Source: Trichoderma breve (lineage: Eukaryota > Ascomycota > Sordariomycetes > Hypocreales > Hypocreaceae). Taken from it: a DNA stretch of 64,000 bases. Both the position numbers and the translations under genes were made by a program. The stretch is taken from assembly GCF_028502605.1 (NCBI RefSeq), contig NC_079232.1:7523386-7587385 (forward strand), given 5' to 3'. The notes beneath the pieces were generated by a model, which ran no database searches, was not told where the DNA came from, and worked only from the letters and a program-made list of their open reading frames with translations. Each line of letters opens with the position of its first letter. Positions within the stretch are counted from its first letter, which is position 1. Positions 19,676 through 44,805 of the stretch are shown in pieces.

Positions 19676-22600
19676 TCAAGGCCCAAGCAGTCCAGCAAGA
19701 GTCGAGGCCCAAGTATTAACCTGATTGAGTTTTAGTAAATTGAACCGTTTGTAGGAAAAGATTTCATCGACTTGCTTACCTTTGCGGGAGTCATCATGGA
19801 GAAGTGGTTGCCGTCGGCGCGAACCACACTCACGCTTCCCAAGAGTTCATCCCATCCCAAAGATCCGTCGTCGACCCTGTCGTCCAAGAACCACTCTGTG
19901 ATCCTCTGTTCTTCGGGCTTGACCTCTGGCCTGCGCACAGTATCCTGCTTGTCTGCGCCCTCCTTCGCTGAGACTAGCACAGCTTGTGGCAACTTCCTGC
20001 CAGGCAGCTTGCTCACCTTGTACGCCGCCACCTGTTGTCTTGCTAGCGTGAAGTGGTCGTTCTCAACAACTTTACCTCTGCTGCTCTCGCCATTCTTGTC
20101 TTGGGCTATGCTATCCAAAAACTCGCACAAGGCGTCGGGTAGCGTGCTTGCGAAGGTGGGACACGCCGTATCGATGAGGAATAGCTTCTCGACCTCATTG
20201 CCGTCCTCAAGCAACTGTCGCGCTGCTTCATAGGCCACAACACCGCCGACCGAATATCCACCGAGCAAGTAAGGACCCTCGGGCTGACGGCGCTTGATCT
20301 CGCCGACGTAGATGGCAGCAAGCTCCTCGATAGTAGGTATATTGAGGGCGTCGGGCTTGTTCTTGAGGAAGGGACTGTTGAGAGCATACACAGACACCTC
20401 TTCAGCACTGCTCAGCAACGGCCCAAGAGCGCCAAACACCGCACCGGACCCAAATCCATCTGGGGCAAGGAATACGTTGCGGCCTCCTGAAGCCCGTGAA
20501 CCACGATGAAGCAACGTCGATGTCGCCTTTGCAGAACACTGCTTCTCCGGCTCAGCAACCATACCACAGACCACTCGGACACCTCTGGATTCTCTCGTTG
20601 AGCCCTCAGACCAGTCCACGTGCGCAAATCCAGAGTCGTTCATGACCTTCTCCCAGGCCCAGGGGCTCTGCAGCGCATATGAGCGGCCGTCGTCGAACAA
20701 CCACCACCCGTCCAGAAGGCCCCAGACAAGGTCATACCACGCCAGCTTTTGCGCCAGCTCAACCAGTGCCACGGCGCCGTCGTCAGGTCGTACCATCTTG
20801 CGGATATTAGTCAGGCAAACATTCAGGTTGCGTGTTGCGTGCACGCAGTTGCTCGACACAACGACATGGTACTTTCCTAGCAACTCCTGCGGGGGCTCCT
20901 CTTCGATGTTCAGTTTACTAAAGTCCATGCCTTGAACGCCCTTAAATGTCTTCTTGGCGCGCGCAAGCAGTGAAGGCGAGAGCTCGGTGAATGTATATGA
21001 AAAGGGAAGTCCAGTGGCTTGAAGCAGCGGTACGAGATGTTTAGTGGTGCCACCTGTGCCGGCGCCGACCTCGAGGATCCGGAATGGTTCACCATCGGAG
21101 GCCTGCAAGTGGATAGCGGCTGAGATGAAGTCGCACAAAACCCTTGTGGTGGCCAGCAGATCGGGGCCGTTTGCGTAGAAGTCTTCTAGTAGGAGGCGAC
21201 CCTTATCAGAGCCAAACAAAAGAGAGACAGCGTCAGCTTTGCCAGACAGACATTCAGCCAAATGTGGCCCGAGAAGATCAGGCAGACCGTGTGTTGATGC
21301 GTATTGAGGGAAACGTGCGATGAGGTCGGCACTGAGTTCCACGGCCGACTTGACATTTGGGTCATGTAGGGGCGTCGGGCCGCGCATGTAGTCACCAGCT
21401 TTTGTTTTCTCGACGATACCGGCCTCCTCTAGGATATCCCAGAGCCGCGGGACTTCTCTATGGTATTTGGCAAGGGTTCCCTGCAGGGCAGGGAGTTTCT
21501 CTCCTCGCTTGAAGTTTTCAATGAGGCAGCCGAGCTTGGCAAATCCTTCGGTAATGAATGCTGCGACGGTTTCCAGCTGAGGAGGATATACCTGATCCCA
21601 ATAGCCCGTGAACTTGGTGTCCTTGGCATGTGCATCAAAGTTGCGGCGGATCTGCTGGAAAGCTGCGTGGGTTATTCTTCCACCGCTCCTCTCCAGCGTC
21701 GACTTCTCAGCAGCAGCCGGCGTGGTTGCGCCCGTGTACGGAGTCATTGAGATGTCGTTGATGGAGGCTGACTGCCCATGAGATCCATTGGAAGTGGGAG
21801 TTTGCGCTGAATCAACACCTAGAGTTGCCCCGATGAGCTTGCACAGGGATGCCACATCGACCAGTGAAGAGAATTCCGAGTTTGAGATGTCAACGCTGAA
21901 CGCATCATTCAAGTTACTGATGATTTCCGATGCGACAAGGGAGTCGGCGCCCAGATCCTCGAGATTCGAGTCCATCTGAATCTCCTCGATAGGCACGTCT
22001 AGGGAATGGCTGAGTATCGAGAAAATAGGCTCCCGCCAAGCCGATGAAGGCTTGCCGACTGCCTCAACAGTAGGTTCAAATACATGCTCAGGCTGCTGAT
22101 ATTCCTCTTCTTCTTCGCTGCTGTCAATCTCAGCGCCGGCATCATCGTCACCGCCACCGACTCGAGCAGAGATGAAAGCGCACAGAGAGGCAACATCCAC
22201 AATCTTGGTGAACTCATCATTCGAAATGTCCACTTTGAATGTATCGGAGATACTTGCCAGGATTTCTGAAGTCACCAGCGAGTCTGTACCGAGCTCCTCT
22301 AGCGTTGCGCTCTCAATGATGTCCTCAGCAGGAATGTCGAGTGACTTGCTCAGAAGCTGCTGCACGCCACCCAGCACGAAGACCGACTTTTGACCACTCT
22401 TCTTAGCTTTGGGCTTCTTAGGCGCGATCGGAGCAGCAGTGATAGCAGCTGGTGGACTCTGATACGAGCTCTTGGGCGTGGATGTTTGAACATCAACTGG
22501 TCTTGCCGGAGCCTTGACTGGCTCTTTGATCTCCACACTTGTTCCTGGGTTGGCTCCCGCAATCACCTTGGCTAGTGAGATGCGAGGAACTCTCGAGAAC

Positions 22601-25600
22601 TTTAGGCCCCTGGCAGACCAGACAAGTTTTCTTGTGTTCTTGTCAAAGCCAAATACATCCAAGATGGTCTCTTTGCTGTCCTCGTGAACAATCCTGGTGT
22701 ATGCTCTGTATCTCGCGCTTCCCTTCAGCGCACTTAGCGGGCCTACGGAATCCATGCCAGTGCAAATGTAAGACATTTCGCCGTTCGTCTCCTCTTCTTC
22801 GCCTGCGTCCCGTAGCGAGTGCACAAATATGCCCGGCACTTGTAAGAAGTTGTCCATAACCAGTGGATCCGCGATACTCTTGTTGGGAGTCATGGCCGAA
22901 GCGTCCAAGTTGGACAGCGGCATGTGAATGTCTCCTGCACCCTCCTTGCCTTGTTTGCCAACGAGGTATTTCAGGCCTTTATACGGCGGCGAATAGGTGG
23001 CCATCTTGGAGAAGACCTTGTATATCATTGCGCCTCGCAGTGCCTCCGTATCGGTATCATCATCCAGAAGCGTTGAGAGGCGCTCCCACATGTGTCTATC
23101 GCTCGATTCGCTGCCAGACTTGGAGCCGTTGGTCAGAGATATGACGCCTGTGGCATGTGAGGTTGGCTTCTCGTTGTCTTTAAAGGAAGCCAACTTGAAG
23201 TCCCATGCACTCCCCGTCTTCTTTGTTAACGTGAGTCTGACTGAGCGTTTCGAGTCTATACCAAGAGGAGCGTTGATCTTAATGGCATCCACTGTGGTTT
23301 CCGCGTTCTTCCCAGGATTCAGCAGAGCGACTGCATGCGCAGCCAGTTCGAGGTAAATTGCTGCTGGGCATAATGAAGAACCAACAACAATGTGACCTTT
23401 GACAAGCTCATGGTAGCGCCTGCTGCGTGTGTCTACCTTGAAGACATACTCTCCCTGATTCTGGCTCTTGTCCTGCTCTATGTAGGGGTAGTCACTGATG
23501 TCTTGGTGGCAGTGAGGGCACAAACCGGACAGTGGTGCCTCGCCGCCTTGCTTCGTACTTGCGCTGCCAAGGGGAGTGTAATCAAGCCAGTGATTGTGCT
23601 TTTCGAATTGATACTGCGGTAGATGCACGGGCACATAGCTCGCGGCTTGGCTCCGGTGGAAGGGCCAGAACTGTACGTTCGTGTGCCCGTTCTTCCACAG
23701 CGCCACCGTGGCGTCTGCAAGAGATCGAACTGGGTCTTTGCCATTGATCGGTACAAAGCCGTGCTGGTCTTGAGCCTGTGCTTGTGGTATCGCGTTCCGT
23801 GCCAACGCGATAATGGGACCGCCGAAGCCAGCCTCCAAAAACGTGCATGAACCCAGACGATCGACAATGCGCGAGATGGCTTTTCCAAAGTACACTGCAC
23901 CCCGAGTATTGCGGGCGATCACGTTGGGACCAGGACCGGTCCAGGAGTCCTCGTGGCACGATTCGAAAGGGTAAATGGGATTCTATCCCGAAAGAGAGGG
24001 TTAGCAAATCATCTCAATAGAAAACGGAGGCTATTGAGCTGTCTTTGAGTATCTCTTTCTACTGACCTTGAATGTGACCGAAGCTGATAGCACCGCTGCT
24101 TCATCAACGATCGGGTCAGCCATGACTGAATGGTATGCATGCATTCCTCTCAGGACCTTGAAGCGGAGCTTTTCACCGCTGGCTTTCCTCTCGATCAAGT
24201 GCGATTCAAGCAAGTCGATGTCCGGTGTATGCCCAGCGACAACGTAGTTGTTAGGCCCGTTGTAGCACGCAATGTCAAGCTTAACGTCAGGATGCTGCTC
24301 GTTGAAGCGCTGCATGTTTTGAGCAGGCGTCGTCCCCGTCCCGACCAAGTCGGCCTCGATGGCTACCATGGACCCGGTGTCATCGCCCCAGAGCTTCGCG
24401 ATGAGAGATGCACGTCCTATTTATAATTAGCATTCCAAAAGTCACTCTATCAGTCGAATCATTTAATTACTGACTATCAAACTGTTAGCATACGGCGCCA
24501 GGCTCAGATAATCGGAGCAAATTCAGCCCGGGGACAAGACATACCCAGTAACAAGTCGCATACCATCCTTCAGTGTTATGGCGCCCGAGACAGTCAGTGC
24601 TGCCCACTCGCCAAAGGAGTGGCCAGAAATTGCCTGGGGCCTCACTCCTGAAGCAATCCACGACATACCGGACGAGTACTGAATAGCGAACATGGCAGCG
24701 TGGCGGAGGACGAGATCATCGCTTTCTTGGACTCCCTCGAGGACAGCCGGGAAGAGACTGGGAAGCCCAAGAGACTGAATTGCCTCTTCGCAGTCGTCTA
24801 TATATGACTTGAAGAGCAGAGAGCTCTCATATAGAGCCTTGGCAGGCGGAACTGCAGTGCCATTCTGTCCACTGAAGAGTAACACAATTGACTTGGGCTT
24901 GGGAGAGGCCGTGGTAATGTGGCTCTCGGGATCAGCGAGTTGTGTCTGCAGGTCGTTCACTTGAGTTGGAGAGTCAGTACCTAGTCTGGAGAAGCTTAGA
25001 ACATTGTAAATAGCGAGTATATGACTTACCAGATGTGACAGTCGTGGAGAACACGTGTTGGAGTTGGCGGTTCTGCTTCTTCGCCAGCGTAAAAGCCAGG
25101 TGCCGAACGAACTCAGGAGTAGACGACTCTCTATCTAGCTGACTCTTCAGTTTGGCGAAATAAGCCAAAAGACTGGATTTAGAACCGGCAGATATGAAAA
25201 TAGGGAACTTTGAAACAGAAGCATTGGCCGTGTTAGACTCAAGCAATGAAGGCGAAGATGACGATCGAGGAGGTGGAGGCGCAACGACAGTGGCCGCATT
25301 GTTACCAGAAGCACCATAACTGCTCACCAGTGCCAAACGCAAGTCATCTCGCCATTCTTTCAAGGAGGTCGAGATCGCCATTTGGTCAGGCTCGAGGGCT
25401 GGAATATTCGGGTTCAGTGTTTGGAACTGGGCCTGAGGTGTAATTTTACCGTGCTTCATCATGAGCAGGACCTTGATCAGGGAAATCGCGCCTGAAGCGC
25501 CCTCAGAATGGCCGACATTGGGTTTCACAGCGCCGACATGCAAAGTATTGCCCCGGTCCGGACCACCAAGAACCTGTCGGATCGCCTCAACCTCGACGGG

Positions 25601-27991
25601 GTCACCAGCGCGTGTTCCCGTACCGTGAGCCTCGACATACGACACGGCCGCTGGGCTGACACCAGCGCGCAGCAGCACGTCTCTGAATAATGCCTTCTGG
25701 CTCTTCAGAACAGGATTTGTGATGCTAGTGTTGTTTATGTTTTGATTGTTGCCAGTGGACAGCAATACGGCGTGAATGTCGTCGCCATCCTGAATCGCCC
25801 TGGCCACTGGCTTCAATACCAAAACACCGACAGCCTCACCACGGCAGTATCCGTCCGCGCGAGCATCGAATGTCTTGCATGGACCCGTCTTGCTCAGAAA
25901 CCCGCCTGTGCGGAGGGCGTCGAACAAGGCAGTGTTGGTGATCAGATTGGCACCTCCAGCGATAGCCCTCGTGCACTCGCCGACCTGGATCGCCCGGCAG
26001 GCCTGGTGTATGGCAACCATAGCCGACGAGCAAGCCGTATCAATAGTCTGAGAAGGTCCTGTCCAGCCGAAATGGTGACTCAATCGACCAGCAACAAAGG
26101 AGCGGAGCATACCGAAGCCCGTGTAAGGCGACGATGGGTTGCAAGCCAGATTCAAGGGGTAGTCTGGCGCGTTCATGCCGATGAAGCAGCCGGTGATTTC
26201 GCCACCATCGGCCACATCGTGGGTCTCTGCCTCCTGTTGCTGATCTTCTCCAAAGCAGCCGGCTGATTCGAGGGCGTGGTAAGTGGTTTCGAGCAACAGG
26301 CGTTGATGTGGATCGAGGGCCGCAGATTCGCGCTTAGACTTCTTGAAGAACTGATGGTCGAATGATTCGGTGTCTCGTAAGAAATTGCCCACCATCTTCT
26401 CGCTTTTACTGGCTGCGTCGGGAAACCGCTTCGGGTCCAAGTCGCGGAACATGCTCTTACCTGACGATATCGCCTGCCAAAGGTCATCTGCGGTGTCTCC
26501 GGCCGCTGTCCGGCAAGCCATGCCCACGATGGCCACTGCATGCTCAGGATAACTTGTTGGTGTGATTTTTTCGTCTCCTGTTCGGGGTGTGATATCCCAT
26601 AGCACTGGATGCCTTGGCGGGTCTCCTTTCTTGAGCTCCAACACTCGCACCACCGCCACATGGTCAGACTTGAGGCTAAGGACGCCATCCAAGGCCGCCA
26701 GGGCCTCCTCTTTGCTGATGATTGCAAGGCCCTTGGCTTGCATTCCCGTAGTGATCATACGTGTAGCCGACTTGCTTTGAGCCATCATACCAACGCCATC
26801 CCAGCAAGTCCACTGGATCGATGTGCTGTTGTCTCCCTGACGTCTCCTCCGTGCAGCTAATCCTTCCAAGAACGAGTTTGATGGCGCATAAGACAACTGG
26901 CCGGGAAATCCAACGAGTTGTCCAACAGAGGATGTCAGGATGAAGAAATCCAATGTGCCTGGTAGAAATAACTTGTCCAGATGGAGGGCGCCCATCACTT
27001 TGGGCGCCATATCGTTGTCCACCTCAGAGGGAGTACAGCGCTCCAATGTGCGGTATCCCGCGACACCGGCTGTGTGAATAACACCCTTTACAGAAGGCAG
27101 GGCTAAGTTGTCTAAGGCTTGCCGCAGAGTCAGATCTGCATCCGGCTTGCTGATGTCAATGGCCAGCACATGTACAATAGCCCCTAAGGTGCGGAGATGA
27201 TCAATCCGTTTGACCAATGCGTCGGTATCAGCATCTTTCTCTTCGTTGTTGAGAACAGGCAAACCACGACGGGACACCAGTACAATGTTGCGAGCCCCTC
27301 TCTCCCCCATCCAAGTCGCAGTCTCCAAACCTATGCCTCGGGTCCCGCCCGTGATCAGGTATGTGCCCTTGGGATCAAGACTTGGCTTTACACCGGCCCC
27401 TTTTGTTTCAATGTCCTGGAACGGTTGGAGCCTCGCAGTCTGCGCCACTCCATTGGAGACTTTGACGACATCGAAGCCCTGGGCATATTTTATAGCGGAA
27501 AGCGGAAAGCGTCCTTCGTCTTCCTCGATCAGTCCGCCAAAGAGATCTGGTATTTCCATCTTCATTGCGCGTGCCAGTCCATAGAGAGGTGCGTAACCCA
27601 GTTCACTGATACCAGAATCTTTGGTGATGACTGAAAACAGCTTATAAGCCGTGCCTCTCTTGGCCTGGGTGTGTTGTTGCAGCATCTGCGCAGCAGCAAT
27701 GAGACTGGTGCACGATTTAGTCGCCGCTTCATAGACCCCGTACTTGTCATTCACCGCCTGAGGAAGATGAACGACAATTGCATCAGGCGTTAACAATGGC
27801 GCTATCTGCTCAACTTCTCTGGCAATGGCTGTTTTGTGGCCCTCTTCGGCAAGTTGGCTTTGGTATGCTGACAAGATTGTGTCATGCTCCCCTTCGCCAG
27901 CGAGAAAGACTACTTTCTCAAATTGAAACGGTTTGCCGGATAGTGTAGCCGTCGTCCAACGGACTTGGTGATATAGCCCGTGTGTGCTCAT
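19676..27991 (-). CDS. Iterative type I PKS, KR-KS-AT-PT-ACP-ACP-CMeT-TE (N-terminal ketoreductase, no SAT seen)
   Basis: Multidomain polyketide synthase of about 2664 residues. Exons: 27991-25030, 24980-24546, 24416-24067, 23982-19780 and 19720-19676. Domains seen: KR with its structural half at 1-195 and catalytic half at 205-405 (GTYLITGGTRGIG, Ser354/355, Tyr368); KS about 482-900 (Cys654 in DTACSS, His789, His828); AT (FSGQNG, Ser1109 in GHSFGEW, then a MHAYHS motif); PT (His1436 in VKGHIVVG, Asp1616 in MDNFLQVPG); two ACPs (Ser1807 and Ser1920); C-methyltransferase (LEVGAGTGGTTKHL); thioesterase (GGYSVGG). PT, tandem ACP, CMeT and TE are the hallmark of C-methylating non-reducing PKSs such as the DMOA synthases. 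Those begin with a SAT domain, whereas this one begins with a complete KR. Exon 2/3 joining needs a stwintron (separate entry). The C-terminal exon adds VNTWASTLAGLLGP. Product unknown. Confidence 0.92.
24417..24545 (-). other. Putative [D1,2] stwintron in the PKS acyltransferase region
   Basis: 129-nt intervening sequence. The nearest GT donor gives the wrong phase with the only good acceptor. Removing an internal intron (24544-24474; GTATGT donor, GCTAAC branch, GATAG acceptor) leaves the first donor base G (24545) next to TCAGTAAT, forming a standard donor GTCAGT. The resulting outer intron ends at the TAG before 24416. The product then reads RLVTG-RASLIAKLWG, matching fungal AT domains. 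Confidence 0.75.
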
Positions 27992-30790: not shown

Positions 30791-32819
30791 CTAGTCTGTT
30801 GATGACTGCTTGCGTTTTTTTATTCTGCAATTGAAACCTTCCTGCTTGAAAAAAAAGCCGTTCTCCACCGTTAGAGCTTTGGGGTCGATGATTTGAATCT
30901 GCAATTCTCTGTCAATAGCAGCTCCAATGTTCCAACACTCGGGGACATGGCAACTTGCCTCGTAGTTGAGAATCAGAAAAGGTATTAACTTCTTAACCTC
31001 AAACAAGCCAATGTACTTTCCAAGACACACACGTCTCCCGGCGCCAAACTGTGCTGACCGTTAGTTCCAATACAGTTCAAGGGCCTAATCCACGAACTCC
31101 AACACTTACGGTGAGTATGCTCTGCTCAAGTTTCTTCTTGTGACCTTCGCCACCAAGCCATCTCTCCGGACTCCAATCTTCTACGTTCTCGCCAAATGTG
31201 GGTTTGTGTCGGTTGACCACGTATGGGTTACCACCGACGAAAACGCCTTCCGGCAGATACTTGCCCATTACGTCAACTCCGCCGACGGGAACAACCCGCT
31301 CAAAGGGAAGAGCAAACGGTGGATGTATGCGCACAGCCTCTTGGACGCATGCGTCCAGATATTCCAAATCGCGGACCTCGTTCCATTTTGGATATGGACG
31401 AGAGAGATTTGCAGCGTCTAGTTCACGCTGCAATGCTTGGAGCGTGTCCGGATGACTTACCAGGTTGTCTGCGAAAAGATTAACCGCCTATTTCTTTTGC
31501 TCGCTACACATGACTTACTACAAGATTGTTAGCCCGTTATACACAAAGTAATTAGAGGGAGATGAACCTGATTGATCAGGCTTTAATGGCACATACCACA
31601 GAATCGTTCGCATTACAGAGCCAACTGAATCAGAGCCTGCTATAACATTCGAAAACGTCCAAGCAGTTGACGCCCTGTAGATTGTATTAATAACGGCTTA
31701 TAAATATCCCAAGCACCGCAAGTGAGGATATTCCTACCATGGTGGCAAGTCTGGGTTAGCCCGGTGAATCTCAAGGAAGCGAGATAGAAAATCCTTCCCG
31801 CTAGTTTGCGTGCCAGCGTCGTCGTTGCCGTCCAGTCGCTCTCGAATGGCTTTGCTCACAACCCCAAGAATTGACATTCCCGGAGTCCGTCTAAAGCTGT
31901 GGACAATCTTGTTTTTATAGAACCAGGGGTCCAGCCAAGGAATCTGTGTCATCTGGGGAACATGTTCAGTAAGATTACATGAGTCATCAACAGAAGCACC
32001 CAACAAAGTACGTACTGGTGCCGCAGTCTTCATGTAGTTGAAAATAGCGTCTAGCATTCCCTCATCATCCCGGCCTTGATCAAGGAATCCGTATCGTTTG
32101 GAAAAGGACATGGTTCCCATAACATCAAAGGCGAAATATTGCACCCATTTGCCAAAGTCGAGTATTTCCGTCGTGCCCACGAAGCGCTTGTCTAGCTGTT
32201 CAGACAGACAGGCAAGTACATCATCGACCAGTCCTTCGAATGTGACAGTGTTCGAGAGTGAAAAAAGCGGAGCAATTGGACTTTTGAGCCTCTTGTGCAT
32301 TTGTTCGTCTTGTGTGTTGAATACCAGTAGCATAGAGCCACGCTCACTAGAATATGGACGCAATGCACTGTAAAAGTCACTCTAAGAGAGAGAAACCTAT
32401 TGTTAGCATTGCATCATTCTAGACACTGCGGTAAAGGTCCAGGACAAGATACAAACCTTGGGAAACCCGGACCTAATCGGATAGATTGTCTGAATAGCTT
32501 CGGGGTTGCTGACAGACACCATGTGAGGCCCAATCCGTACAATGTCGCCATATTTGGCATGAACAGCCTGGTGATATAGATGTGCACGCCCGGTTCTCAC
32601 CCACCAGACCCTTTGCAAGTTAGTGAGGCTGGCCAAGAAGGGCCCTGGAATATGTCTCAACGACCACCAGGTTTGAAACAGGTGCACAAAGACAACAGCA
32701 ATCGTCGCTACCACAGCCAGCCACAAAAGCCGAACTCCATAGAAATCATCTCTGAAACTTGAAAATAGCTCTGCCGATGCATTGATGGCAGTTACGAGCG
32801 TCTTGTTCATTGTGCCCAT
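30791..32819 (-). CDS. Cytochrome P450 monooxygenase (first of three)
   Basis: Membrane-anchored haem monooxygenase of about 545 residues. Exons: 32819-32457, 32381-32016, 31952-31738, 31674-31598, 31468-31110 and 31048-30791. Seen: an N-terminal membrane helix ([18 protein letters not shown]), proline hinge HIPGPF, I-helix [10 protein letters not shown], ExxR in [13 protein letters not shown] in DWSPERW, and haem loop [10 protein letters not shown]. One 63-nt intron (32015-31953) is in frame and stop-free, so a raw ORF hides it; removing it gives [13 protein letters not shown]. The exon 4/5 gap needs a stwintron (separate entry), after which the I-helix continues [13 protein letters not shown] with normal spacing. 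An upstream in-frame ATG at 32909 would add 30 residues before the anchor. The substrate is unknown; it is probably a cluster oxygenase. Confidence 0.9.
31469..31597 (-). other. Putative [D1,2] stwintron in the first P450 gene
   Basis: 129-nt intervening sequence. The internal intron at 31596-31518 (GTATGT donor, GCTAAC branch, CTTGTAG acceptor) interrupts the outer donor between its G (31597) and TAAGTC. After its removal the outer intron has the donor GTAAGT and the acceptor TTCGCAG at 31469. Only this reading keeps frame and gives a normal P450 I-helix length. Confidence 0.75.
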
Positions 32820-34315
32820 CCAAGACAACCAATGCCTCGCAAGTTCCTGTTGGAAAATAAATAAACTTGACACTAAATGTTGTAGTTTACAAATGGATCC
32901 GTCTGGCATAAATAGGGCAACTGTTTTTCAGTTGTTAAAAGCGACTAAATAACGATGATGTAACAAAGGTTTTTTCCATTTATGATACAAATCAGGTCAC
33001 TTTGGCTAATGAAGCCATTGGCAAAATGTAAAAATGTTCAATGTAATATCAATTTACTAACGCCAAATAATCCTTACCAAAAACATTCGATAATAGCATG
33101 ATGTTTAGACATTTACTTCTACAGCCAAGTACATTTCTAATCATGCAATGCATTTCATCATCACTCTCTCTGTGACTAATAGTCCATGCTATTTTGAAGT
33201 CTGAATTGGAAGCGTACACTATCTTGCTTCAAGCTAGCGACTAAACAAGAAGGTTACATATTCATATCCTTGTGGCATGTATATCGGTGAGAGATTACGA
33301 AGTCCGAAATTTAGTTCCATCTCGGAGTGAGTTGTCAACTACCCATGGAAAGGCCACGTTCCTCCCGCTCTGCAACCTCAATGCATTACAGCAGATAAGC
33401 AATGTCAAGGCAACTACGTTGTAACAGAAAAGCCTCCATTAACCAAATGTAAAATAAGATTTAAATAAAAAGTGGATATAAAATAAATAAATAATAGTAT
33501 TTAAGTAAATATATATTTATAGAAATTTAATAAATTCTATTTAATTTTAATATTATTCCTTATAATATAGAAAGTTTTTTAGATTTTATAAACTATTTTT
33601 AATTTCAAATATTAGTTTTTGAATAAAAGAAATAAAAAGTTAAAATGTATAAACTAATATATAACTTATTTTTTCTTTATTTTCCTTATTTTGTATATCT
33701 TTTTAAAAAGAAAGAAATATATAAAACAGGGATTTTTAAAGTACATTTAATTACAAGCGGCAATATAACTATTTAAAGTAATATATTTACAATTATATTT
33801 ATATAATTAAGATTTTTGAAATATATAAAATATCACTATATATAGATTTTCCCAACCATTAGATACTAGGATATAAGGTGAGTTGTTGCTTTTGCGTCCC
33901 ACTGTAGTAGGTATTAGTGGAGATAGCACGGAAACTAACCGGAACCCGATATCACCTGCTTGGGCAGAGATCGTGGGGGCACCTGGTCTCTTCGCGTCTT
34001 ACATGCATACGGCTAGTCAGAGATCGCCCGGGTAAATGGTCGTTTTCCGCTTCCATATTTGGCAACCAATCTCGCTCTGTCTTACATGCATGCGACCTTT
34101 CGGTAACCCCTGTGTTCTCCACCACCGGCTTACAAAAGTTCTCAGGTACCTGAGACGTCACTTAGATAAATGAATCTTGGGATATGACATTACAATAACT
34201 TCTTGTATGAGAAACGTGGTTGAAATAGTATTATCAAGCCAATTGCCTGCTTGAGAATCCTCTGGAATAATTGCTTCCAACAGAATCTATCAACACTCGC
34301 AGAACAACCGCAACA
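32820..34315. other. AT-rich spacer between P450 and methyltransferase genes
   Basis: About 1.5 kb, divergent promoter region. 33430-33880 is very AT-rich with no coding frame. A short repeat TCTTACATGCAT(A/G)CG occurs twice, near 33998 and 34080. No gene seen. Confidence 0.6.
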
Positions 34316-35740
34316 ATGGGATCATCCACTCGATCAGTTGATGATGTTCTCAAGACCTTGAATTCCATCAAACCAGAGGACTTCGCAGCCGATGGTGATC
34401 GAAGCAACGTCCTCCTGGCTGCGTATGCTCTTGTAAGCCGCCTTGAGACGCCCTGGGAGGCTGTTGCAAGGCTGTGTATGAACCAGGCAAGTCCAAGACA
34501 TCCCCGGCTTCCTTCTACAAGTATTAACGTTGTGCTATTATGAAGCCTGCTCTTGAAGCCAGCTTGAAGGTGGCCAAAGATTTGCAGTTGTTTGAGAAGT
34601 GGCATGAGAGAGGTGATGGGCCAGAAAAAAGTGACACCTTGGCGGACCTGGTTCAGTGTGATAAGCAGCTCTTCTGTAAGTCTTTGCACTTGGACAACAA
34701 AATCATACCCTGAGAATGGGAGAAAAAGCCTCAGCACAGAAGCCACTGACATCAAGTAGCTCGTATTCTGCGGCATTTGGCAGTGAACCATATTCTTCAA
34801 GAAGTTTCGGCAAGTGTGTACAAGCCTACGGCCTTCTCTCTGTCTCTCCTCCAGCCCGTCTTCGGGGAGTGGATCAATTATCTGTAAGCTGAAACCCTAC
34901 TATCACAAATTACGATGCTAAACCGCTACCGCAGGTATGATGCTGCCATTCCTTGTTTCCATCGGATGCCAGAGTATCTTCAGAAAACACGTTACCAGAC
35001 GCCTATAGACCCTGATGATGGCGTGTTTCAGTATGCCAAAGATTACAAGGGAGATTTGTTCAAATATTACGCAGATCATCCCAAAGAAGGCGCATCCTTC
35101 AACCATGTCATGGGAGGTGTCATGGCCAATCAGGCCAGCTGGGTGAACATCATCCCTGCTGAGGCCTTTATCAATGGTTCGGATCCTAGTCAACCGCTCA
35201 TTGTTGACGTAGGAGGAAATGTTGGTCATGATATCGAGAAATTCCGCAAGGAATTTCCAGAGACGGCTGCACGGCTGTATCTGGAGGACAAGCCCGGAGT
35301 GATTGCACTGTCAAAGTGCCCTGACCCCGTGAACAAAATTCCTCACGACTTCTTCCAGCCCCAACCAATTAAAGGTGAGCGATTGTGTGCCTCTAACAAG
35401 ACTCAACCGCTGACAAATCTTTGCAGGTTCCCGTGTCTACTACATGCATGGTGTTCTGCATGACTGGGCTGATGAGCCGGCTCGCAAGATCCTCCAAATG
35501 CTCCGGGATGCTCTGAAGCCTGGTTACAGCAAACTTCTGATTCATGATCACATAGTCCCAGAGGTCTCAGCCCACCCACATGCGACATCGTACGACTTGA
35601 CCATGATGGTTTTGGTTGCAGGGCTAGAAAGGACCGAAAGCGCCTGGCATGCTTTGCTTCAGTCAGCTGGATACAAGGTCATCCGGGTATGGAGATCGCC
35701 TCTGGCAGCCCAAGCTATCCTGGAGGCCGAGTTGGCATAA
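34316..35740 (+). CDS. SAM-dependent O-methyltransferase (caffeate/sterigmatocystin OMT-like)
   Basis: Protein of 393 residues, cytosolic, expected to methylate a phenolic hydroxyl. Exons: 34316-34486, 34546-34675, 34757-34883, 34935-35374 and 35427-35740. Seen: an N-terminal dimerisation-type helix region (WEAVARLCMNQ, DLQLFEKWHE), LARILRHLAVNH, SAM motif I VDVGGNVGHD (third Gly of the usual GGG replaced by Asn), and the active-site His in HGVLHDWADE followed by the helix ARKILQMLRDALKPG. The first intron uses a GC donor (CAG/GCAAGT), a recognised minor class. Immediate neighbours are P450s, and an aromatic product of the PKS would be a natural substrate (inference). Confidence 0.92.
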
Positions 35741-36234
35741 GTTTCGAAAGGATAGATGGACACACTCCCAATACTGTATACTGTGTCGCATGACTCCTCA
35801 CGCAGAATGTTGTGGTGGATCCTTAGAGTACTATAGTCGATAATACATATGACGCAAACCAATATCATCGTCGACTTGCTTCGCACTTTCAACTATGCTA
35901 GAAAGAAGTGAACAACAAGTGCAATATATCATATAAGTGCTTCATGAATTTTTTACTAATAGCTGAGCAAGAAGTGTGCAATAGAATAAGGGCCGCAAAG
36001 TGATTATGTGCATATCATCACATTGCAAAAATATTATCGTAGCACTTATTTCTGGCATTATAGTCCATTTCTGCACGTCTATATTGCCCAATATTGACTC
36101 TGTTGCTTTGTTCCTTTCTACAAACTTTATTGTAAGTCATTATGCTACGAGCATTGATTTTGCTATTCATGATGTACTGAGTGGCCAATATTATAACGGC
36201 AATAAAAAGGTCGTAGTATTCAGCGCGCAAATGT
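35741..36234. other. Intergenic region between convergent genes
   Basis: 494 AT-leaning bases between the methyltransferase and second P450 stop codons. No gene seen. Confidence 0.6.
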
Positions 36235-38084
36235 CTAATTTATGACCACCCTGACGCCTTTGCTTTCCTTCTTAGGCATAGGAACAAACAAATCGTAGTC
36301 ATATTTCACGTCATCAATACCCGTTTCATACAATTTCGTTCGCGGAAAGACACGCAAGGTCAGAGCCACTACCGATAAGAACAAGTTACAGTACGCCAGA
36401 CTTGAGTATGGATGAATTAGTAGCCATTGCAGATCTGTGAATGCGGAAACTTACTTCATTCCCAAGCACACCCTGCTGCCCTTAGAGAACGACGTCAAGC
36501 TACTCTCCATTCGGCGCCGTTGAGCTTCCTCTATGTCGAGCCATCGTTCAGGCCTAAATACATTCGAATCGGGGAACACTTCTTCGTTGTGGTGATTGAT
36601 AGCATTGGACATGCCCATAGGTGTGCCGGATGGAATAACATATTTGACTTCGTGGCCATTGAATTGGCCTTGGTATATTAGATTTTCTTTGGATGCAATT
36701 CTGGGTATTCGGGCTGTGACGCCATAGGAAAGTCGCAAGCCTTCGGTAATGACTGCACTAAGATAAGGCAAATTTTCAAGAGCAACCCATGTTAGGCTGA
36801 TGGCATCTGCATCCTGTAATTCTTTTGTCAACCGCTCTAGGATTTCAGGCTGATTCAGGAGGTAAAACGTGATGACAGTTAGAGTCCACTATGCGAATGT
36901 TAGAACTTTAGGCTATGTCTGAGTTTGAGCTATCAGTCTTACCGCAGTCGTCTCAGTACCGGCCGAGATCATGGAGAAGCCTTCGCCACCTAGTCGGTAG
37001 TCCGTTTTCTCTTCATCTGGCAAAGAGGAGCCGAGTATCGCCGCAAAAATACTCGCACGATCCTGTACTTTGCCAGACTCGTGCTCTTGTTTAGCTTTGC
37101 GTACGCGAGCAGGCATTCTCTCATTCGACTCTGCCAACATTTTTGCGATATCCTCTCTCATGTATTTGGCAAATAGCGGAGCAATGTTGGTGAGAATTTT
37201 CAGAGGCGGAAAAAAACGGAAAACGTACGTAGTTCCGAGAATCGCTCCCAAAGGTTCCCTAAAATTTGGATACCAGGTTTCCTTCACATAATCCTTTCAG
37301 CACGATGTGATGTACATCTCTTCCAATGAGACTCATTCTTACCTGCGATATAAATCCAAAAGGCTCTCCAAAGCAGTAGCCCGAAATGACATCTGAAGTA
37401 AAACAGCTGTAGGATGTGGTCACGTCCAATGGATCTCCATTTTGTTTGCCTTTGACTGTTAGAAGCTGCCTCGGAATCTTGTTCTTTGTCATTTGACCTA
37501 CCTAAACGTATCATCTTGTCACATAGTTGGTCGACGAGCTCCCTGATATTGGATTCAAGCTTCAAAATCTGTGCTCGTGAGAAAAACTTGTTCATCGCGC
37601 TCCGTCTGATCCGATGATGATCGTGATCCAGGGTCGCGAACATGGACGAAACGATTGGCCCAGCGACGAAGTTCAAAAAGTGTTGCTGTTTATCACGCTT
37701 GCGGCCTCCACCGGCATAGATCTCATCAACAAATGCTATGTCATCAAAGTGCAGCTCCTCGGGATTAATGCGCACAACAGGACCTAATTAACAACATCAG
37801 CCATGGCTACTGGCGTTTCGACGCCATATCATTTTACCATAAATCTCATGCATTCGTTTAATCTCGTGCGTGTACCTCCCATGTAGAATTAGATCATACC
37901 AGGCTTCATAGAGGAATGTTGCAGCTGCAAGCTTCGGACCAGGTATGTGGTTGAGAGGATGAAAGGGTGAAATGTTATACAACGCCCAGAGTATATAATA
38001 CGCTATCCACAGACCAGCAAGGCCTATGAGATTAGTCTGTGTAAGGAATCCATTAAGGATGCCCAACACAGCTGGAACACCCAT
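36235..38084 (-). CDS. Cytochrome P450 monooxygenase (second; trichodiene oxygenase-like type)
   Basis: Membrane-anchored P450 of 526 residues. Exons: 38084-37838, 37783-37502, 37455-37343, 37281-36943, 36888-36455 and 36400-36235. Seen: an N-terminal membrane helix (LIGLAGLWIAYYILWALY), the fungal signature YNISPFHPLNHIPGPKLAAAT, I-helix ISAGTETTA, ExxR in EGLRLSYGV, FRPERW, and haem loop FSKGSRVCLGMNLAY. The N-terminal YN...HPLxxIPGPKLAA pattern and the FSKGSRxCLGMNLAY loop are shared with Tri4-like and related fungal P450s of secondary metabolism (family knowledge). All five introns are 46-61 nt with canonical ends. The substrate is unknown. Confidence 0.93.
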
Positions 38085-39365
38085 TTTCGAATGTAGATGA
38101 GTTCAATGTGTTGGAGGTTGTCATTGACGTTCCAAGAGTTTAATAGGTTTCTCAGACGTCGACGTTGGCTGTTAGATACACACTAACCATTTCCGATTGT
38201 CAGCAGGTTCTGTGGTTTCTGGGTACTAGTAGTAGCTACTGTGATGATTTATGGGGAATATGTTCCGCTAGTCAGCGAAGTCCCCGATAAAAGTGCCTTG
38301 TGTCTGACGTCCTTGTACCAATGCAAGTTGATCCAACAGGCACTAAACTGTCACTGTGTATTTGCTTGATTATGGCAGTGTCTTGATATTACCTTTGATT
38401 ACGATTAGCTAGGTTAGTAAACAACCAAACGGTTACAACCACTTTATTATACACTACTAAAAAATACAAACTTATTGTATTTTGCAAAGATAACTATAAA
38501 GAAGTATATATATATATATTGGTGAAATTGAGATTTTCTTAACACTTTAATATTTATAAATATTTACATTATGTATGCACTTTGTTATAATTTACATTAG
38601 TTAACTTATTTCCAACGTAAATAAAAGCTATATTTATAACTACTTCTCTAAGATTTATAACGATAATTAATTTAAAATTTAATTCAATTAAAACATTATA
38701 TATTTGGAAATTAATATAATATTTCATATAGTAGTTATTAACTTTTGATTACTTATTTTTGCAATAACGAGATATACAGGGTAAGATAAAGTTGTCAATA
38801 CAATGCGGGATGAATGTGGGTCTGAAACAACACGCTACTTTATCGTGGGGGTGGATTCTGCAATAGACATGGATGACGAGCTCCATAAGAACGGCCCGTC
38901 CTGCATGGGTAGCCATCCCTGCATGGGTCCCCAGTCATCAACCCTGCACGGAGAGTCAAGCCTGCATGCACAGTCCTGCATGGATCGTTAACCCTGCAAG
39001 CTGTAGCAAGGGTATATTCAGCCCCCGGTCATGTATCGTCAAGGTTGCTCGACTCAAGATAGCATGATTCCTTCGGCCCGCTTACGAATGTTGCGGAGCC
39101 GGCAACGAGCACATCATCATCATCATCATCATTATCACCAATAGCACTGAGCAAAATTTGCCCATGTTCTCTCCCGCCCTTTCCTCCCCCCTGGTCATTG
39201 GTGGTACGACTGCTCTAGGCTAACATCCTTCACACCGCACTGCTGCTTAGAAGACGATAAGCCCCCGAAGTGTTCGGATGCTGTTTGTCGATTTGAATTG
39301 CTCTAAAATAGCCAGACGATCTATCCTTAGACTACCACAATTCCATGGGCCACTGAATACGGATA
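38085..39365. other. Divergent promoter region with AT-rich block and short repeats
   Basis: About 1.3 kb. 38440-38790 is AT-rich and non-coding. Near 38898-39000 the motif CCTGCATG/CCTGCACG/CCTGCAAG recurs six or so times. A (CAT)7 microsatellite lies at 39112-39132. No gene seen. Confidence 0.6.
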
Positions 39366-40907
39366 ATGAGATTAACAGAGGCATATGTCAAGGCGGCACT
39401 GCAAGGTGCTACGCCTGCGGCTGTGTGCCTGCTCGCCGCTTTGGCAATATTATCCGTCATTCTTTACCGGCTTTATTTCCATCCTCTCAAACATATTCCT
39501 GGCCCGCTATTAGCAAGGACATCGTCAATCTTCCTCTATGTGATCAGCTACCTGGGCCTCGAAGCCCGTATCCTTCGCCATTACCACAAAGTTTATGATA
39601 CAAAAGTGTTACGAGTAGCACCAAACTCAGTTTCTGTGTCCGATGGCGCTTCTATTCACACTATTTATGTGGCTGGGGGTGGGTTTGCGAAAGATGCCAG
39701 GTACTCAAATTTCAACATGGGACCTGTAACTACCATTTTTTCGAGCCTGGACACCGATTATCGTGACTTGCGCGCCAAGGCTGTTGCGCCCCTTTTCTCA
39801 ACATCTCGTCTTCGCAATGCTTCTTTACATGGAGGTGTTATCCATGAATGTGTCTCCGAGTTTGTCACCCAGCTCGCTAGTCTCAAAGCCGACTGCAAGA
39901 CCAACCATGCCAAGTTGGATATCCTAGACCAGTGCGCCCGTCTCTCTCTGGACGTTGTGACTGGCTATCTGCTGAACGAGCCGTACGGTGGCCTGGCCGA
40001 GCACCAGCAACTTCCCACGGAGAAGCGGCTGAATGCCAAGCTCAGCATAAACCCATTCATATTTGCCATTGTGGGGTTTTCGCGCTTCTCGCTGCTTCCA
40101 AACTGGCTTTTCAAATTCATGTACTCTCTCTACAGCCGCTTTAGCTTCAGCGAGGAAGTGGGCAGATGTTTTGTCAGCATGGACTCGTTTGCGCGTCGTC
40201 TAGTCAGCCAGACTCTTGAAGTCGATCCCACCAAAAGGCAAGACTCGTACCAAACTCGACTTTTGGCAGCGGGAATTACACCTTCGGAGACCGAAGTTCA
40301 GTGTCAGGCCGTCGTATTCGCCGGTTCTGACTCCACAGCCGTTAAGTTGGCCACAATTCTGTTTCATTTGGTGCAGAATCAGGACTGCCTTCGCCGACTG
40401 AAGGAAGAACTCCAGGCGGCAGAGACTGAAGACGAAGCCGTAGCCCTGCAAGAACAGCCATACCTGCTTGCCGTTATCAAGGAAGGTTTGAGAGTGGGCA
40501 TGGCTAATCCGACTCGGATGACGCGTGTTGTTCCCGCCAAGGGGATGCAAGTTGGAGAAGTCTACATCCCACCAGGTACCATTGTTGGTGTTGCTCCGTA
40601 TATTGTGCACCATGATCCAGCTGTATTTCCAGATCCATTTGCATTCCGGCCTGAGAGATGGCTCGAGGCCGATAGGGACAATGGGTTGAAGAGACCCAAT
40701 ATGGACAGGAGTTTACTTATGTTTGGAGCGGGTTTGAGAGCTTGTATAGGAAGAAACCTGGCGCAGAAACAGTTGACAGAAACCATCAAGGCCGTGGTGA
40801 AAAGCAGTGTGCTTGAAGGCGCGCAGACTTGCCAAAAGCGCATTGAGCTTGTAGAGTGGTTTAACGCCGAAATTAAGGGGCATACGCTAGACATTGAGTG
40901 GCCTTGA
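39366..40907 (+). CDS. Cytochrome P450 monooxygenase (third, intronless)
   Basis: P450 of 513 residues in a single exon, unlike the other two P450 genes here. Seen: an N-terminal membrane helix (AAVCLLAALAILSVILYRLY), HPLKHIPGPLLA, I-helix VVFAGSDSTAVKLA, ExxR in EGLRVGMANP, FRPERW, and haem loop FGAGLRACIGRNLAQKQL. The layout resembles the pisatin demethylase-like group of fungal P450s. It is divergent from the second P450 across a 1.3-kb spacer. The lack of introns may mean retrotransposition or ancestral intron loss. Substrate unknown. Confidence 0.93.
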   Translation: MRLTEAYVKAALQGATPAAVCLLAALAILSVILYRLYFHPLKHIPGPLLARTSSIFLYVISYLGLEARILRHYHKVYDTKVLRVAPNSVSVSDGASIHTIYVAGGGFAKDARYSNFNMGPVTTIFSSLDTDYRDLRAKAVAPLFSTSRLRNASLHGGVIHECVSEFVTQLASLKADCKTNHAKLDILDQCARLSLDVVTGYLLNEPYGGLAEHQQLPTEKRLNAKLSINPFIFAIVGFSRFSLLPNWLFKFMYSLYSRFSFSEEVGRCFVSMDSFARRLVSQTLEVDPTKRQDSYQTRLLAAGITPSETEVQCQAVVFAGSDSTAVKLATILFHLVQNQDCLRRLKEELQAAETEDEAVALQEQPYLLAVIKEGLRVGMANPTRMTRVVPAKGMQVGEVYIPPGTIVGVAPYIVHHDPAVFPDPFAFRPERWLEADRDNGLKRPNMDRSLLMFGAGLRACIGRNLAQKQLTETIKAVVKSSVLEGAQTCQKRIELVEWFNAEIKGHTLDIEWP

Positions 40908-42466
40908 TACGTGTAGAATATATTACTGAAATCCCCCTACATAAATACATCATTGAATCACTGGGAACAGCCACTTAGGTGGGTGATAGTGTATCGTTCT
41001 ACTTAGGCTTAGGGGTCAATAGCAGTTATACTATAACAAACGAGTTTTGTACAAGATGGATTGCAAAGCAAAGACTATCGAATACACAAGGCAGCATTTA
41101 GTGACTCTCAAAACAGTTTTATTTCATTACTTTTACTGTCAACTAAGCGAACTCCTGTATATCTAATAAATATAATAGAAACTTTTTTATATGCCTCTAT
41201 ATGAAAGTTTATTTTTTTCTCATGATAATAATACGGCTCTTGTAAATACTTCAGCCTTCAAATGAATATTATCCAAAAGCAATATATAAAGGAATGTTTA
41301 GTAATATCAATGACTACTTTAGGCTAAGTGACGCAGTTTCGTATTTAACCTGTGAGAAAACGGCAAGTCTTCCGGCATGACACGGCACAGAAATACTGCG
41401 CACAACGCGGTAATACGAAGAGAAAAAAAATGTTTTGCATGAGGCGCAGCATGTGAATGTTAAAACACTTTGGTGCTGACTACAAGGTAGGCAACTGCTA
41501 CATTAACGGTGGGGCCGGGACTTTTGCATTAGATAAACTGCAGCAGAATGTCACTTTGGCATTGTAACGTCAAGGGCAGGGCTAGGGAGCATGACGTAGT
41601 AAATCGTGATTGGACTGATGGAAACATGGAACGGGAACAGGGATCAAATGATCAACTAACCAGAGTCTCTTCACTTTGAACTCAAGTATCACTGGTGTAT
41701 CATATGTCATTTCCATCGTGATCCTCTACAACGTCTCGTGATGACGCTCACCGCCGGATTGATGCTAAAGATCCGCGGACCTAGGTAGATCTTGTGGTTC
41801 TAGAATCATCAAAGCTGTTACTAATACGAGGCGTGCATTACATTCGGGAGTTAGCAATCACATTATCTCCGCCGTGACTAGGAAGTCAGGCAATACACTG
41901 TTGGTGCGCTCATCCAACTTGGGCCGCAATGTGTCTGCACTACTGCAGCTAGCCCTGTTAACGCGGAAAGTACTGGCGTGTATATCTCAAGTAGTTGTAT
42001 AGGATACAATTGAATGAACATCATTTCTTCCTTTGGCCTACACATTTGGTGTAAGCCGCGTTTATCTCAATAGGTCAACTTGTATCACCAACCCCGACCA
42101 TTATCTCTCCACTGCATACGCTGATTTGTCAAATATCGCGAGTATTAATAACGAGTTCATGGAATGATTTGTAATAGATTCAACATCGAGATAATTGGTG
42201 CCTTCCAATTCCGCCACGGCCACATCCATGTTTGGTTACAAACAGGCGCGCTTAGACTGTTTCTTCTGAAGCCCCTGAATCTTGTCCTGTAGTATTGTAC
42301 TTTCGAGCGCTATCTAGCAGACTGCTACCATCCCGCGTAGACTCATGCCAAAGATACAAGCTACTAGTGAAACTTTGATGGCATTGTCCAAAGTGACTAA
42401 ATTTGAGTGTTGAATTTACTATATCGTCACTAATAAACAACTCCTATTCGGGTGTTCATTGTGTGT
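40908..42466. other. Gene-free spacer
   Basis: About 1.6 kb between the third P450 and the MBL-fold gene (convergent). I see only short chance ORFs and moderate AT content; no repeat or RNA feature recognised. Confidence 0.55.
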
Positions 42467-43651
42467 TTATGGCTTAACATGTTCTAGCTCTTTACAAAAC
42501 AACCATCGAGTGGCTTTGCCCAGGTCCTTTCCTTCCCAATTGTTCAATCGATCTGGGTAAAGTGGCAATTTGCCACCCAGGGAGTCGTCGTGTGCGAGAA
42601 GAACGAAAATATTGCCGGCAGCGTCTAGTTCCTGAATCTTGGCGACAGTGTCCAAGGCTGCATCATGGTCAGGGAACAACGGCCCGCGTGCCACGTGGAA
42701 AAAGGGCTCTCGGAGGCTCTTCTTCCATTTACCCAGCTGTGTTAGCAGATCTCCTGGACAGCCGCCGTAGCTGCTTAGATGCTGTGATCCTGAAGACGTC
42801 GGCTGGGGAAGAGTAAGATACTGCGAGGGCCGCAGCACACCTGGGTGATGGCACGCGTCGGCACCCATGAAAACAAAGGACGGTGGATCGACAGTCGTGC
42901 GTGCCAGAGCACACATGTGCCCCGTTGCATGACCTGGGGCGTTGAGTAGGTAGAAAGATCCATCGCCGAAATAGTCGAACGCATCAAAGCGGCCAATTCG
43001 CAGCCCTGTGTTGTCGAAACTGATCTCGCGTACAACCCGGCCAGCAGCATCGCTGTCGAGCACGACACCGTCGGGGTTAGACGGGTAACCCGGCCATGAG
43101 CTTGCCTTGACGCCGGGCCCGACAATGAGCTGTGTGTTGGGTGGAAACCGTGACGGATCCCCCGCGTGGTCAAAGTGGCTATGAGACCAAACAATTGCCT
43201 CAATGTCAGAGCTACGAATGCCCAGGTCGCTGTCGTCGTCGTCAAGCAACGAGGCAATGTCCTTTTCGCCAGTTGACACTGTGGTAGTGGCCTTGACGAG
43301 CTTCACTATATTGGGCGCATAGTTCTCCCAGTCGGTGCGAACCCCGAGATCAAAGATGATGTGGCGGCTACCGTGAGACACAAGAAAGCAGTAAACGGGC
43401 GCATTGGGTCCCTCGAAGCCTTCTAAGATTGGCTCCCAGAATACCCCCGGCTTTAGGTAGAGGCGCGTGTTGCTGCGTATTGTCCATGTGCGATTAGATG
43501 CTTGTACAACTCAAGTCCAAAATCTTGACCAAGGGACAGAATTCACGTACGTATCGAGAACCCTGACATCGACGATACTCGAGGATGTTGGGACCTTGAC
43601 ATCAAGCGGAGACGAGGCGCCAGCCGGATGTGGCTGCTCGGAAGAGTCCAT
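42467..43651 (-). CDS. Metallo-beta-lactamase-fold hydrolase (lactonase-like)
   Basis: 368 residues in two exons, 43651-43551 and 43472-42467, with a 78-nt intron that joins VRVLDT to NTRLYLKPGVF. Seen: the metal-binding motif HSHFDHAGD, then the further ligands His in NAPGHATGH and Asp in FMGADACHH, and a late His in LLAHDDSLG. The arrangement fits the dinuclear-zinc hydrolase fold; sequence flavour is closest to N-acyl-homoserine-lactonase-like proteins that are common in fungi. It could open a lactone, hydrolyse a thioester or detoxify the product. It is not obviously the ACTE-type discrete thioesterase of anthraquinone clusters, and the PKS already has its own TE. Confidence 0.9.
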
Positions 43652-44442
43652 CTATGCGGGAAGGCCGTAGTTTCAGTAGGAGCTGATCAAGAGCAATGCT
43701 TATTGACGGTAGATGGAAAAATCGGCAGATGTGACGGGGTTAGGCGAAGAGGAGAGAAGCAAAGGTATTGTACTTTGCACGAGTGTCTTTCGAGAGTGGC
43801 CTGCTTGTCCTTTAGCATTAGCTCACATATTACCTAGAGTATCATCAGGCCAAGTTGGTAAATAATGCATGTATATGGACCGGGGCTCCTTAAAAGAGCA
43901 ATAAGCAAGGGTCTGTTGTTCGTAAACATAATGAACCAGAGGAATATACATAAGATTACAAAGTTATGCTGAGAAATTATTTAAAAAAGGTTTATTATGT
44001 TTTTATAATTTTATTTATTATTAGCTAATATAAACAAATATTACTTATTACTTATTTTTATTATTTGAAATATCTTTATATATATATATAACAAAGTAAG
44101 GTATAAAATATATAAAAAATACTATTTAATATTAATGAGTAATTTTTAAAATTATTATTATAAAAGGCTCTTACAAAGACTAAGTAATACAAAGAAAACT
44201 TATATAATAGTATAGAATTCAGTACAGAGGTGGACGACCCGGGACCATGGTGCCGTTTCCCGCCCCCAAGTGTTCCATGCCTATCGCAGCCTCGTTGAAA
44301 ATACATGCACCACGGACAAATCGGCATAACCGATCCTCTTGCTTACGCTGTGAGGCTGAGCAAACTACCAGGTATGTTGGCCACACACAAAGACAGTGGT
44401 TCTCGCCTAGTAGCGTATTGCACTACACCTGGAATCAGGCCC

Positions 44443-44544
44443 TTGATTTCTCTCACCCAGCTCATCCTTCAAGTCCTTGACTTTTCCCACCCGTCTCCTC
44501 CTCCATGTCCTTGGCTTTTCTCACCCATCTCATCCTTCAGATAA
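44443..44544. repeat. Three tandem copies of a 34-bp repeat
   Basis: Copies begin at 44443, 44477 and 44511, each starting CTTG(A/G)(T/C)TT and containing CTCACCC or CCCACCC followed by a CTC(A/C)TCCTCC-like pyrimidine-rich stretch. Lies about 260 bp upstream of the GMC oxidoreductase start. Confidence 0.7.
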
Positions 44545-44592
44545 CATGGCTGCCTCCCTGTTAGGAGTCAGCTTACAGGACAAGGTCAAGCC

Positions 44593-44624
44593 TCCTTTCA
44601 GCTGATCCTTTTCAGCTGAAAGGA
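44593..44624. promoter_or_regulatory. 13-bp inverted repeat upstream of the GMC gene
   Basis: TCCTTTCAGCTGA and its exact reverse complement TCAGCTGAAAGGA are separated by 6 bp. Each arm contains the palindrome CAGCTG. Located 182 bp before the GMC start codon; it may be a protein-binding site or a hairpin. Confidence 0.55.
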
Positions 44625-44805
44625 TGGGCAACCATCGTCGTTCAAAAAATAACTCGGGCTGGCAATACACACGATGATGACTATTAAAGGGGGTTGTCCG
44701 CTCGACATCAGTTCCTTTGGATCTGCAGCTTTGAGCGGCGTCTTTGTGTCATATACTACTTCATCGAGCATATTTTCCCTCGCTCTTCACTGTTAATCTT
44801 ACATT

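Follow-up and report, generated by a model that had tools for sequence, protein, structure and literature searches.

The 64,000-nucleotide stretch of Trichoderma breve DNA analysed here (contig NC_079232.1, positions 7,523,386 to 7,587,385; ‘the window’) carries the gene for an iterative polyketide synthase (PKS) in which a complete ketoreductase (KR) stands in the place of the starter-unit domain, SAT, of the non-reducing PKSs (NR-PKSs). This enzyme, a KR-NR-PKS, is genuine, intact and conserved, and belongs to a published but uncharacterised kind. Its architecture, its intact catalytic residues, the conservation of its family and the differing affinities of its KR and its ketosynthase (KS) are established directly. 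That the KR acts early, before assembly of a methylated aromatic product, is plausible. What we would add to the published record, judging from sequence, is the split between a KR allied to 6-methylsalicylic acid synthase (6-MSAS) and a KS of NR type, an apparent minimum of at least four changes in the state of the methylation domain, and a candidate stwintron—a nested intron requiring a two-step splice—that seems to break gene models.

Architecture and conservation of the family

The gene lies on the minus strand and runs from an ATG at 27991 to a TGA at 19676. Its five exons, with borders chosen by eye and then spliced in a script, amount to 7995 nt, and removal of the four introns leaves a product of 2664 amino acids (aa) without internal stop. 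Pfam models applied to the exon pieces, together with NCBIfam, give the order KR–KS–AT–PT–ACP–ACP–CMeT–TE from N- to C-terminus (AT, acyltransferase; PT, product template; ACP, acyl carrier protein; CMeT, C-methyltransferase; TE, thioesterase). The Pfam KR match covers residues 209–398 (180 bits; cut-off 22.6) and is preceded by the structural half of the domain. The AT match is confined to the exon 2 piece, and the 116-aa exon 3 piece on its own matches no family. At the place of the PT, Pfam reports PKS_DH_N, and then two ACPs, HTH_51 with a methyltransferase, and a thioesterase; the NCBIfam model for fungal PT domains, TIGR04532, is covered from position 8 to 327 of its 329 (E 2.7e-35). Among solved structures, the C-terminal piece finds the citrinin PKS (5mpt) first and norsolorinic acid synthase second, and lower down the aflatoxin PKS TE (3ils), PT structures (3hrq, 3hrr) and the noranthrone synthase PT (5kbz). 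The KS finds bacterial PKSs at the top, with CTB1 and norsolorinic acid synthase further down. The profile search of the exon pieces thus bears out the coordinates and domain order of the original prediction. The prediction also claimed a complete N-terminal KR, and residues 1–470 align as structural and catalytic halves with three 6-MSAS-type proteins. The NR-type body that it described is found both by profiles and by the KS tree.

The KR does occupy the SAT position. Exon 1 is free of SAT profile matches at E 0.001. A genome-wide search (38.5 Mb, 9 contigs) scored 12 exon-wise matches, all of them outside the window; because the model finds these 12 elsewhere in the same genome, its silence here is meaningful. 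A single open frame, measuring 1094 aa between stops, contains both KR and KS with no intron separating them, and metagenome-derived proteins of ~990 aa share the same KR–KS frame. An upstream SAT exon was considered and rejected, since the window holds no SAT match and the N-terminal start of the protein is common to the family.

A search of other genomes for the same N-terminal KR had been proposed. With the KR region as query, the best 120 of 2902 homologues include 48 proteins in which this KR precedes a KS (P0001–P0046, P0053 and P0054, some incomplete), Aspergillus proteins of the same layout among them. The named sources are Trichoderma guizhouense, T. chlorosporum, Botrytis, Stromatinia, Aspergillus, Penicillium, Diaporthe, Cytospora, Apiospora, Colletotrichum and Xylariaceae, and these hosts span the Sordariomycetes, Leotiomycetes and Eurotiomycetes. 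The start methionine lies within one residue of the query's in 45 of the 48, which supports the first exon as real; of the other three, two have their starts 9 and 17 residues further upstream and one, P0053, begins inside the KR. P0028 and P0054 have no TE match. The KR Lys, both candidate Ser and the Tyr are identical in all 48, and the KR Asn in 47; the KS Cys, the PT His and both ACP Ser are likewise kept throughout, the AT Ser is present in 46 (the other two are gaps), and the PT Asp in 43. This pattern suggests that the KR has been maintained in a catalytic state across the family. CMeT is missing in 10 of the 48 (P0027, P0028, P0030, P0033, P0038, P0040, P0044, P0045, P0046 and P0053), and its state changes at least four times on a KS-plus-PT tree; a few of the CMeT-less models may be truncated. 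No second copy of the KR–KS exon occurs among 50 matches scored in the genome, and four pattern matches in viral contigs yielded no confirmed relative.

The T. guizhouense protein is 91% identical to the query in the KR, and 97% over residues 1000–2400. Identity steps at the KR/KS border: residues 1–480 (26552–27991) are ~91% identical, compared with ~98% for KS, AT, PT, CMeT and TE. Faster evolution, allele exchange and gene conversion are candidate causes of the step.

The original prediction took this layout to be undescribed, and that is not borne out. The Synthaser paper of 2021 presents a cluster of Aspergillus NR-PKSs in which a KR replaces the SAT, describes it as uncharacterised, and makes the broad suggestion that the KR might carry out reduction in the manner of highly reducing (HR-) and partially reducing (PR-) PKSs (PMC8582187). 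A table in a 2014 comparison of Aspergillus species includes a protein of 2648 aa with the layout ‘KR-KS-AT-PP-TE’, its expression values given as 0.0 (PMC4073137). The Aspergillus cluster is therefore a published family with this architecture, the very finding that the original prediction had named as telling against it. The T. breve enzyme shares with that cluster a KR in place of SAT directly before the KS, a PT-containing body and a KS of the NR group (PMC8582187). The likeness is one of layout; here the host is Trichoderma, CMeT and TE are resolved, and the splice structure and KR affinity are worked out. Other classes differ more. Canonical NR-PKSs have an N-terminal SAT and no reductive domain; this protein has no SAT and does have a KR. 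PR-PKSs carry their KR between DH and ACP, have no PT or TE, and have KSs in a clade of their own; here the KR is N-terminal, PT and TE are present, and the KS lies outside that clade. NR-PKSs of the citrinin type (SAT-KS-AT-PT-ACP-CMeT-TE) share the body domains, the CMeT being nearest to that of 5mpt, whereas the KR-NR-PKS lacks SAT, possesses a KR and has its KS in a separate, long-stemmed clade. The AT motif reads GHSFGEW, where most NR-type matches listed have GHSFGQL. Some family members carry the database labels BcPKS20 or BcPKS19, the latter also found on SAT-type proteins. For Bcpks20, connected to the family by database label, one report gives no identified compound (PMC9909433). No characterised member or product was found in the open-licence literature, which lacks most subscription journals.

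Affinities and proposed chemistry of the KR

Trees were built by a quick method with SH-aLRT (approximate likelihood-ratio) support; long branches are flagged in both the KR and the KS trees, and TerB, discussed below, is outside the set. In the KR tree (87 rows, with 31 of the 49 family rows, query included) the family and the fragments P0220 and P0221 make up one clade (support 100). The clade sits among the KRs of PR-PKSs of the 6-MSAS type, apart from eight KR loci of the same genome (L001–L008) that bear the HR-PKS label collectively rather than from a check of each locus. A second KR tree (55 rows, 23 of them family rows including the query) again returns one clade at 100. The alignment with the three 6-MSAS-type proteins extends over the full length of the KR, with 35–46% identity among the 6-MSAS-like rows listed. 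The 6-MSAS family shares this sequence and differs in the rest: it has no PT, CMeT or TE, its KS belongs to another group, and its KR follows AT and DH and precedes the ACP.

The original prediction had also proposed a KS phylogeny. In the KS tree (78 rows: 31 family rows including the query, and 27 labelled NR-type, 19 of these with an annotated SAT) the family stands beside NR-type KSs, away from PR-PKS and bacterial KSs, in its long-stemmed clade. P0124, labelled as an NR-type control, falls inside the family; its model starts within the KS. KR and KS thus differ in affinity, as capture of a domain would predict. Both come out as single clades, so the most economical history, with which the trees are consistent, is one capture of a 6-MSAS-type KR by an NR-PKS.

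The best functional analogue is a two-protein system, TerA and TerB, which in trans yield 6-hydroxymellein in the terrein pathway (PMC12848540). The likeness is that of an NR-PKS and a KR giving a partially reduced aromatic; the difference is that these are two proteins from divergent genes, and that TerB is a separate multidomain dehydratase-ketoreductase (PMC12848540). In the KR-NR-PKS the KR and KS occupy one frame, and a single polypeptide carries CMeT as well. Artificial terA/terB fusions have reportedly been made, and the present family would be the natural version.

We think it probable, with moderate confidence, that the enzyme is an NR-PKS body with a 6-MSAS-related KR for SAT, acting by acetyl priming and a single early reduction. 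AT and KS would load the acetyl unit themselves, without SAT. The KR would then reduce a beta-keto group once, in cis, at the di- or triketide stage, and the hydroxyl would remain because there is no DH. The KS would complete the chain unreduced, with C-methylation, the PT would cyclise it to an aromatic ring, and the TE would release the product, plausibly as a mellein-like lactone of the 3,4-dihydroisocoumarin type or as a related acid.

Several observations weigh against this account or some part of it. The PT match, at 122 bits, is below the NCBIfam curated cut-off of 168, and the PT Asp is replaced by Asn in 5 of the 48 proteins. Median identity to the query is 49% and 61% in the two KR halves, against 73% in the KS. 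Approximately unbiased (AU) tests accept the PR rows as one group (p-AU 0.609) and equally the family with the near PR subgroup (p-AU 0.76), both constrained trees being likelier than the quick free tree; the tests accommodate the family's KR either nested within the PR-PKS KRs or as their sister. And the likeness to TerB is drawn from published description.

The strongest rival would have the KR act late, on a late intermediate or on the released product (e.g. on a ketone or enol in the side chain once the ring has formed). TerB offers a precedent, since it converts 2,3-dehydro-6-hydroxymellein to 6-hydroxymellein as a late step (PMC12848540), and the long sequence distance between KR and ACPs points the same way. 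In all 48 members the KR and KS belong to one protein, with the KR first; this position argues against late action, as does the alliance with 6-MSAS KRs in tree and alignment. Those KRs reduce an ACP-bound triketide. We regard late action as unlikely. More doubtful still is that the KR is a starter-handling site, at which a beta-ketoacyl starter supplied by an HR-PKS or fatty acid synthase partner is reduced. The KR does sit at the SAT place, and many CMeT-bearing NR-PKSs rely on a partner; against this, no SAT remains to accept a starter, and, among the best candidates scored, the window holds one KS-bearing PKS locus and no second, the nearest other match on the contig ending ~76 kb before the window starts. 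That a separate KR gene was fused to the PKS in silico is suggested by the rarity of the layout and by nothing else found, and we reject it as a negligible possibility given the intronless KR–KS frame, the ~990-aa metagenome proteins and the 48 homologues.

Intron 2 as a candidate stwintron

One detail of the gene model must be corrected: intron 2 cannot be read in frame as an ordinary GT/GC-AG intron. It divides a conserved AT stretch, LVTGRASLI, between LVTG and RASL. Plain GT/GC-AG introns gave 0 in-frame solutions that restore this stretch, and tandem introns with a micro-exon also gave 0; both were rejected. Nested splicing does restore the frame, in seven parses, three with a disrupted donor ([D1,2]) and four with a disrupted acceptor. 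From these we picked by eye the most canonical, a [D1,2] parse in which an internal intron, 24544–24474 (GTATGT...CTAAC...TTGATAG), interrupts the external donor, G|TCAGT, between bases 1 and 2; the external intron ends CTAAT...AAATAG at 24417. Intron 2 therefore looks like a [D1,2] stwintron. This is the commonest stwintron type, with its internal intron between donor nucleotides 1 and 2 (PMC12403724); such introns begin 5'-GGU and are missed by annotation software (PMC9024468). Our candidate shares these features, namely a 5'-GGT start, an internal intron splitting the external donor, and escape from annotation (PMC12403724, PMC9024468, PMC5639578). It differs in being read from sequence, and in a family of PKSs spread over three classes of fungi.

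Protein models in the database lead us to suspect that the stwintron is conserved in the family. The AT junction is not contiguous in 33 of 41 readable family models and contiguous in 8 (48 examined, 7 unreadable), and it is not contiguous in 0 of 64 NR-type (71 examined) and 0 of 40 PR-type controls (63 examined), the motif being unreadable in 7 and 23 of these. The counts depend on the motif rule, the final ones using a looser rule. A narrower motif gave 6 contiguous, 35 not and 7 unreadable in the family, and 41 contiguous and 23 not among NR-type controls, those 23 being contiguous by eye; the narrowest was readable in 1 of 71 NR-type rows. For length variants, the intron 2 junction ranks highest of 1044 conserved-flank windows (21; median 4). 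Within this genome, two other NR-type PKS loci, L010 (adjoined by a SAT match) and L009 (none found), are contiguous at this junction. Against conservation, the 8 contiguous members are joined by P0121 and the metagenome protein P0122; in these, intron 2 has been lost or was correctly predicted.

A one-base frameshift, from an assembly error or in a pseudogene, would also explain why no plain intron fits. We give it little credence: relatives' models break at the same junction, in the proportions above, and controls do not, and the unspliced metagenome proteins P0201 and P0211 run into intron 2 in the same phase. If a conserved stwintron is indeed present, many public KR-NR-PKS models would be wrong in the AT, and cloning from predicted cDNA would be spoiled.

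Neighbouring genes and significance

The neighbourhood was surveyed with Pfam on 30 open reading frames of the window (Table 1). Three P450s, a metallo-beta-lactamase fold protein and a GMC oxidoreductase adjoin the PKS (31080–46681), and the PKS and these oxidative tailoring genes probably form a biosynthetic cluster. The P450s and other oxidoreductases may modify the released product. Two stretches located on the upstream side of the PKS and about the 5' portion of the first P450 (28001–30000 and 32001–34000) are AT-rich, at 37% G+C against ~53–56% at 20–28 kb. A single open frame at 58982–62641 brings together matches to four kinds of model, in the order methyltransferase, FAD-binding, phosphomevalonate kinase, phosphoribosyltransferase, an unusual mix. 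Elsewhere in the genome, L009 (G000:C4:629000-638900) is an NR-type PKS with 45% KS identity and an open frame of 1831 aa; the genome-wide SAT search gave no match there, and open reading frames are present upstream.

Table 1. Features of the KR-NR-PKS gene and its surroundings (positions within the window)
Feature	Position	Strand	Basis or remark
KR-NR-PKS exons	27991-25030, 24980-24546, 24416-24067, 23982-19780, 19720-19676	-	borders by eye
N-terminal KR module, residues 1-470	26582..27991	-	structural half ~1-205, catalytic half 209-398
KR residues of interest	Lys331, Ser354/355, Tyr368, Asn372	-	family alignment
KS domain (Cys654, His789, His828)	25256..26539	-	Pfam, family alignment
AT domain (Ser1109, His1228), split by introns 2 and 3	23740..24900 (approximate boundaries)	-	Pfam, alignment
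PT domain (His1446, Asp1626)	22561..23481	-	PKS_DH_N, NCBIfam, structure matches
ACP1 (Ser1817)	22165..22365	-	alignment, NCBIfam
ACP2 (Ser1930)	21832..22026	-	Pfam, alignment
CMeT (HTH_51 + methyltransferase)	20623..21657	-	Pfam; top solved structure citrinin PKS 5mpt
TE (Ser2493, Asp2520, His2642) and short last exon	19676..20478	-	Pfam, alignment
Intron 2, candidate [D1,2] stwintron	24417-24545	-	nested parse of sequence
Zn2Cys6 regulator	9.2-9.9 kb	-	Pfam
P450 gene, seen as exon pieces	~31.1-32.4 kb	-	Pfam
P450 gene, seen as exon pieces	~36.5-36.9 kb	-	Pfam
P450 gene	~39.4-40.9 kb	+	Pfam
Metallo-beta-lactamase fold protein	42.5-43.5 kb	-	Pfam
GMC oxidoreductase	45.3-46.7 kb, start perhaps 44.8	+	Pfam
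Aldo/keto reductase	48.5-49.2 kb	-	Pfam

A broader proposal can be put forward tentatively, as something we would not ourselves bet on. A single fusion of a PR-type KR onto an NR-PKS might have founded a third, intermediate class of iterative PKS, a one-protein TerA/TerB making partially reduced, often C-methylated (dihydroisocoumarin-like) aromatics; and a stwintron retained from Sordariomycetes to Leotiomycetes and Eurotiomycetes might have corrupted most public models and contributed to the family's obscurity.

The interest of the KR-NR-PKS lies in its chemistry, in the pairing of a KR and a KS of unlike affinity, and in its suspected conserved stwintron. Enzymes of this kind, present in several classes of Ascomycota, breach the textbook divide between reducing and non-reducing fungal PKSs. 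If the in-cis KR does programme a single early reduction, they would offer a clean system in which to learn how an iterative PKS can carry out one reduction and no more.

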